A stretch of 64,000 bases of DNA from NCBI GenBank assembly GCA_004298905.1, contig SCTK01000004.1:1-64000 (forward strand). The letters run 5' to 3'. Both the position numbers and the translations under genes were made by a program. A model generated the notes under the pieces. That model did no database searches. It was given only the letters and a program-made list of their open reading frames with translations, and was not told the origin of the DNA. Of this stretch, positions 24,122 to 24,265 are shown piece by piece (the first letter of the stretch is position 1; every line of letters begins with the position of its first letter). This DNA comes from Burkholderiaceae bacterium (GTDB taxonomy: Bacteria > Pseudomonadota > Gammaproteobacteria > Burkholderiales > Burkholderiaceae_D).

Positions 24122-24150
24122 AATGTACATATTCAGCATACACAAGTGAA
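24122..24150 (-). promoter_or_regulatory. Possible hemB promoter
   Basis: Read on the minus strand: TTCACT (24150-24145), 17-base spacer, TACATT (24127-24122). It overlaps the -35 area proposed for the divergent small RNA, so the two promoters would compete or be coordinated. Confidence 0.3.
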
Positions 24151-24167
24151 CGCGATTCGATTATGAT
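24139..24167 (+). promoter_or_regulatory. Promoter of the candidate small RNA
   Basis: TACACA (24139-24144, four of six consensus bases), a 17-base spacer and TATGAT (24162-24167). A start at about 24174 falls exactly at the first hairpin of the RNA. Confidence 0.5.
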
Positions 24168-24173
24168 TCACAT

Positions 24174-24265
24174 CAGACGATCCCGTCGTCTCCCGCTTCA
24201 CCTCCCTGAGCGGGTGCCTTTTTAAGGCTTCAAACCCCAGTACGCGAGTATTGGGGTTTTTTTTT
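24174..24265 (+). ncRNA. Candidate small RNA at the Spot 42/ErsA position beside engB
   Basis: About 90 bases with no open frame. Four hairpins in order: GACGA/TCGTC (24176-24190); CCCGCT/AGCGGG (24192-24214) whose 11-base loop shows CCTCCC, complementary to Shine-Dalgarno sites; GCCTT/AAGGC (24216-24228); and a 12-bp terminator stem (24232-24243 with 24248-24259) with a GCGA loop and nine T. The flanking genes are both on the minus strand, so the terminator serves neither. In Escherichia coli Spot 42, and in Pseudomonas ErsA, lie next to engB in the same convergent orientation. Homology is not shown by sequence. Confidence 0.7.

Follow-up and report, generated by a model that had tools for sequence, protein, structure and literature searches.

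An anti-hemB small RNA with an anti-Shine-Dalgarno loop beside engB, and its possible kin among gammaproteobacterial engB-side RNAs

The Burkholderia cenocepacia orthologue of the RNA analysed here is ncS04, a 105-nt RNA with a 3' end determined by RACE, which was mapped by sequencing and is named in the legend of a Northern figure (PMC5688073, PMC4603805). In the cited parts of these papers, ncS04 lies between BCAL0264 and BCAL0265 in the orientation <- -> <-, it co-purified with Hfq, and none of the seven tabulated qPCR conditions altered it significantly (PMC5688073, PMC4603805). The small RNA ErsA lies between polA and engB, as stated in the cited section (PMC8575079), and is described as AlgU-dependent in another (PMC8395346). 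The paper on sX13, in the part cited here, describes an RNA whose C-rich loops act on G-rich motifs close to start sites, and notes that Spot 42 and alpha-r7 share the polA place without sequence similarity (PMC3771888).

An anti-hemB family RNA between hemB and engB

The window, i.e., the whole 64,000-nucleotide stretch of DNA that was analysed, contains a plus-strand element between hemB and engB (Table 1). Both neighbours are on the minus strand and flank the element, as an earlier note on this DNA had read them. The 3' end of the RNA is only 66 bp from the engB stop codon. Upstream in the window, positions 21664-23007 (+) hold a 447-aa reading frame with no NCBIfam match.

Table 1. Features of the hemB-engB region of the window
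Feature	Coordinates	Strand	Remarks
hemB	23063-24100	-	divergent neighbour; NF006762, 511.1 bits
hemB start codon and Shine-Dalgarno	24100; AAGGAA 24116-24111	-	read from sequence
candidate sigma-70-like promoter, TACACA-17-TATGAT	24139-24167	+	
small RNA, anti-hemB (RF02837) family	24174-24265	+	~92 nt; 5' end predicted
5' hairpin	24175-24191	+	predicted fold
hairpin displaying the anti-Shine-Dalgarno loop	24192-24214	+	predicted fold
CCUCCC, complementary to ribosome-binding sites	24201-24206	+	unpaired probability 1.0 (fold)
small hairpin, U-rich loop	24216-24228	+	predicted fold
intrinsic terminator, 12-bp stem + nine T	24232-24265	+	stem 24232-24259, nine T 24257-24265; sequence and fold
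engB/ysxC	24332-24994	-	convergent neighbour; TIGR03598, 201.6 bits

The region 24139-24265 is strongly folded (z = -5.41), and none of 200 shuffles equalled it. The fold of the RNA (24174-24265) comprises three hairpins plus the terminator; a further hairpin, one of the four counted in the earlier note, falls in promoter DNA. The 12-bp stem with its nine T was found as described there, and the statement that neither neighbour can use this terminator is nearly right. Its use by engB is possible but unlikely, because the stem, read on the minus strand, has only TTT after it. The U tail is a possible Hfq site, Hfq having a putative role here, and an Hfq gene is present in the genome (97.3 bits). 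The loop reported as complementary to ribosome-binding sites was recovered fully unpaired. Its CCUCCC sits within UCACCUCC (24198-24205), which we take to equal the 3' end of the 16S rRNA. The promoter is present at the place claimed for it, but one such match in 801 bases is close to the 0.5 expected by chance. In B. ambifaria, a 105-nt transcript, as for ncS04, would start at the seventh base after TATGAT; the equivalent position in the window is 24174.

The Rfam family RF02837, “Burkholderia RNA 7 (anti-hemB)”, matches 24189-24265(+) with 62.3 bits against a cut-off of 49.5 (E 3.7e-12 for the whole window). It is the sole Rfam family above its cut-off in the 64 kb searched. This covariance-model match is the strongest sign against chance, and the window RNA is a member of the anti-hemB family RF02837. 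A betaproteobacterial RNA at this site, which the earlier note would have counted as new, is therefore not new, and the element counts as a known-family member because a betaproteobacterial RNA at such a place (ncS04) had already been described. The window RNA is like anti-hemB/ncS04 in sequence, structure and orientation, in lying between hemB and engB, and in its terminator and CCUCCC loop. The window copy differs in its length (~92 nt versus 105 nt for ncS04), in a promoter unlike that of most family relatives, and in its terminator loop, which is short and lacks the CUCCCC present in many other beta copies. The name anti-hemB is misleading, since the RNA points away from hemB without overlapping its reading frame. 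The same genome also contains a “toxic” double-hairpin small RNA (RF02278, 65.8 bits) with CU-rich anti-Shine-Dalgarno-like segments (G000:C4:13262-13323, L003).

Distribution and conservation in beta- and gammaproteobacteria

RF02837 was found at E <= 0.001 in 299 of the 399 genomes of the window's order and above its cut-off in 245 of 399. Among the controls of this search, matches occurred in 3 of 14 genomes, with 0 over the cut-off. Within the window's family the figures are 35 (E <= 0.001) and 26 (above cut-off) of 40 genomes. HemB and EngB were both found at 28 of 32 loci (the window plus 31), and both flank the RNA at 28 of the 29 family loci, the remaining one (L130) being cut. The spacers of relatives, on which the earlier note had staked its reading, contain both the stems and the terminator, and inverted repeats similar to the 5' hairpin of the window were seen by eye in many of them. 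Across the 245 family genomes sampled, the best EngB matches reach no more than 61-65% identity.

The core DNA pattern matched at least 120 stretches of named genomes, of which 80 were listed. Among the matches listed, it is carried by Burkholderia, Cupriavidus, Pandoraea, Variovorax, Polaromonas and Azoarcus, by Nitrosospira, Methylovorus and Vogesella, and by the gammaproteobacterium Ectothiorhodospira. These 80 stretches hold 81 core places, some at stretch ends, around which neighbours were sought within 1.2 kb. The order HemB-RNA-EngB was found at 34 of the 81 listed places and HemB without EngB at 19; EngB occurred with polA at five and with neither upstream gene at eight, polA alone at one, and no neighbour was found at 14. 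Nitrosospira briensis carries two tandem core copies between hemB and engB (L202 741-886).

In the gammaproteobacterial class sample, RF02837 matched 124 of 274 genomes at E <= 0.001. Only 14 are over the cut-off, two of them beta genomes, which leaves only 12 non-beta genomes in this sample. EngB was found in 233 of the 274 genomes, with 150 places listed. A position 15-391 bp 3' of EngB was found for 49 of the 146 listed gamma matches, 45 of them convergent with EngB and four on the same strand; these 49 come from 47 of the 150 genomes with a listed EngB place, and the 47 span 35 families by hand count. For the other 97, EngB was not among the places listed (64), on another contig (25) or far away (8). 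The gamma copies examined number 43 from 41 genomes (40 of the 47, plus L036). EngB lies 3' and opposite in 38 of these 43, 29 of which also have polA 5' on the same strand; one further copy has polA 5', but EngB is not 3' of it. The order polA-RNA-convergent engB is the arrangement of E. coli spf. Among matches over the cut-off, L038, L040 and L041, with no EngB in the stretch, follow polA on the same strand, and L039 and L042 had neither polA nor EngB in the stretch. Tandem arrangements were also seen. L039 and L042 (genomes G658 and G547) are pairs ~200 bp apart in stretches where EngB, HemB and PolA were not found, and in the gamma genome G568 four tandem copies lie between the EngB and PolA matches (L106 1090-1844).

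The beta alignment holds 37 of 61 rows (the window, 18 of 29 family copies and 18 of 31 others), and CCTCCCTGAGCGGG is invariant in 37/37, as it is in 61/61 beta rows before selection. The same exact 14-nt core occurs in 12 of the 43 gamma copies. Within their first 45 nt, CCTCCC is present in 36/43 and CTCCC in 41/43. This conservation is partly built in, because the copies were found with a model holding the motif. The gamma alignment holds 34 of the 43 copies; the nine dropped were second, same-strand or weak copies, a selection that biases towards conservation. In this alignment, double changes were seen at 7/7 pairs of the anti-Shine-Dalgarno hairpin, versus 0/7 in the beta alignment, where the hairpin is hardly variable. 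The hairpin thus combines a covarying stem with a loop conserved in sequence, the pattern to be expected at a pairing site. Most other positions of the RNA are less conserved than the first-hairpin loop. In one copy (L139) the 5' arm is broken and CCTCCCTGAGCGGG is intact.

Promoter type and links to ErsA, sX13 and Spot 42

The motif GA?AAC[TA]-N14-18-TC[ACT][TGA] was sought in the 110 nt upstream of each copy, with dinucleotide shuffles as control. This motif resembles the sigma-E/AlgU consensus. It was found in 77 of 103 copies versus 4.7 expected (29/43 gamma, 25/29 family and 23/31 other beta copies), 43-58 nt before the model start except in three. A weight matrix whose training partly used these sites scored above 99% of shuffles in 35/43, 28/29 and 26/31 copies, respectively. 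The ErsA copy of G559 carries the motif as well. In the named genomes, the strict motif was seen in only 35 of 79 places, a count made without shuffle control; the places without it include Burkholderia, Variovorax, Polaromonas and Hydrogenophaga.

The window RNA has no sigma-E-like motif within the 110 nt before it. The best matrix score of the window falls within its own shuffles (fraction 0.29). A reading of TGAAC..TCACA as a sigma-E site in the window was rejected, its spacing and letters being a misfit and its score lying within its own shuffles. AGTTCC (24109-24114), considered as a minus-strand sigma-E box, overlaps the hemB Shine-Dalgarno and was also rejected. The window's genome encodes RpoE (299 bits). 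From these sequences we infer that sigma-E control would be the older state and that several lineages switched to sigma-70. A 2.2-Mb genome of the window's family (G101) has neither an RF02837 match nor RpoE over the cut-off, one case consistent with sigma-E dependence.

A covariance model built from gamma copies only (R1) finds the window RNA at 24173-24264 with 38.1 bits (E 3.6e-9), as its sole hit up to E 10 in the 64 kb. Twenty EngB flanks were drawn from the 86 gamma genomes without a listed RF02837 match. R1 matches eight of them, all convergent with EngB, including the sX13-like place in L085, which scores 60 bits. It weakly finds the RF01719 (ErsA) gene of G559 (24.6 bits, E 4.9e-5). 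For the proposed engB-side RNA family of beta- and gammaproteobacteria, model hits in both directions and a shared place were thus both found. Rfam models overlap at these places too. RF01719, over its cut-off in one of 274 class genomes and weaker in nine, overlaps the RF02837 match in six of these ten (G453, G462, G541, G553, G568 and G663), and RF02232 (sX13) coincides with RF02837 in L073 and L085, both below cut-off. Gamma engB-side RNAs are also matched below cut-off by the alphaproteobacterial ar14 (RF02344; L052, L055, L056, L060), a hint at a wider kinship or resemblance of C-rich-loop RNAs.

Searched for in 23900-24500 up to E 5, RF01719 was not matched, and it has no match in the window's genome (G000). 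RF00021 has none up to E 5 at the window element, none in G000 and none in the 274 class genomes, and RF02232 none up to E 5 at the window element. ErsA resembles the window RNA in having its gene beside engB, and the G559 copy has a sigma-E/AlgU-type promoter, C-rich loops and a terminator. The differences are an upstream polA in place of hemB, a sigma-22/AlgU-type promoter whose motif is absent from the window, and, in G559, the lack of the CCCGC-CCUCCC-GCGGG hairpin, CCTCCC occurring in the terminator loop only. The G559 gene has polA upstream on the same strand, with EngB on another contig. The Xanthomonadaceae sX13 (RF02232) shares C-rich loops and a gene beside polA, according to the part of its paper cited (PMC3771888). 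It is reported to be Hfq-independent and to have three such loops, whereas the window keeps one clear case.

Spot 42 resembles the window RNA in place and direction (polA-sRNA-convergent engB, or yihA). It differs in that R1 gives no significant match and E. coli spf is without any CTCC; repression by cAMP has been reported for it and a peptide, spfP, is annotated. R1 did not match E. coli spf at E 0.1. With filters off, R1 scored highest at spf itself within the 5-kb E. coli locus, but with no more than 10.1 bits (E 0.041). The window RNA is linked in both directions, by covariance models, to the gamma polA-engB RNAs and through them weakly to ErsA; the link to Spot 42 is one of position only. 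The earlier note had placed a plus-strand small RNA with an anti-Shine-Dalgarno loop at a locus of the ErsA/Spot 42 type, which is supported.

Proposed function, rival readings and significance

The best explanation, which we regard as probable, is a trans-acting anti-hemB (ncS04) RNA of ~92 nt, the beta form of an engB-side small RNA that includes the ErsA type. It would be transcribed towards engB, and its apical CCUCCC loop would pair with the Shine-Dalgarno regions of mRNAs, blocking ribosome entry. Hfq would help by holding both the U tail and the U-rich loop. Most of the relatives examined carry a sigma-E/AlgU-type promoter, through which the gene would respond to envelope stress. In the window's genome and some other beta lineages, this promoter appears to have been replaced by a sigma-70-like one. 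Shine-Dalgarno occlusion is the likely mode in view of the U tail and the CCUCCC loop, of the co-purification of ncS04 with Hfq, and of the reported action of sX13. The RNA is likely an Hfq-assisted repressor covering ribosome-binding sites. The sequence, structure, location, conservation and promoter pattern are established here, and transcription and Hfq co-purification are known from papers on the B. cenocepacia orthologue; we infer the mode of action, the expression in the source organism and the promoter swap.

The 12-nt complement of the loop was sought in the window's genome, which has 165 sites with up to two mismatches, whereas the reversed control gave 64. Among the sites listed, the RNA gene itself is the sole perfect one. 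Among 30 of the 165 sites, the RNA gene included, there was no convincing target; at three of the 30 (L268, L269 and L271), a GTG or TTG 6-13 nt downstream opens a reading frame of 194 aa or more.

The element could also be a plain Rfam anti-hemB member, sharing no ancestor with ErsA or Spot 42, C-rich-loop RNAs having arisen separately beside engB and polA in beta- and gammaproteobacteria. The missing RF01719 and RF00021 matches in the window and the low R1 score of E. coli spf (10.1 bits) are in line with this, and unrelated small RNAs have C-rich loops too, as the cited part of the sX13 paper indicates (PMC3771888). We nevertheless judge separate origins improbable, in view of the CCTCCC in the first 45 nt of most gamma copies (36/43), the exact core in 12/43, the covarying hairpin, the sigma-E-like promoter at a like distance, the convergent place beside engB and the model hits in both directions.

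A cis-acting role at hemB or engB, such as interference with transcription or pairing with an engB 3' end, is hinted at by the name anti-hemB, by the 66 bp between RNA end and engB stop codon, and by EngB being the neighbour most widely common to beta- and gammaproteobacteria. It appears very unlikely, given that the RNA is divergent from hemB and outside its reading frame, that many gammas have polA upstream, that some copies lie away from EngB (e.g., L038, L040 and L041 after polA), and that conservation is higher in the first-hairpin loop than in most of the remaining RNA. Membership among the double-hairpin “toxic” RNAs is hardly credible: RF02278 does align with 24187-24264, and CU-rich anti-Shine-Dalgarno motifs are common to both, but its 23.2 bits are below the cut-off of 50 and far under the RF02837 score, and the genome has a separate gene of that family (L003, 65.8 bits).

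The trans-acting reading can be extended into the past. Anti-hemB, ErsA, sX13 and many unnamed engB- or polA-side RNAs would then be one ancient small RNA that predates the beta/gamma split, originally sigma-E-driven and with anti-Shine-Dalgarno loops. Spot 42 would be a far-diverged member, and several beta lineages would have moved independently to sigma-70 with the loop unchanged. We see the chances for and against this wider history as evenly balanced.

The common view is that small RNA genes turn over quickly. In the open-licence full texts of PubMed Central, no paper was found linking anti-hemB to ErsA, sX13 or Spot 42. The breadth of the distribution and the link across families may thus be the new part. 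The sX13 paper, in the part cited, asks whether other bacteria encode small RNAs at the polA locus (PMC3771888). Here, one small RNA seems to have stayed beside engB, with its CCUCCC hairpin, across beta- and gammaproteobacteria while its promoter changed. If this is true, at least three Rfam families would merge, and sigma-E control together with anti-Shine-Dalgarno action would be predicted in many unstudied species. Anti-hemB would gain a testable function and also a better name, as the RNA does not run antisense to the reading frame of hemB.
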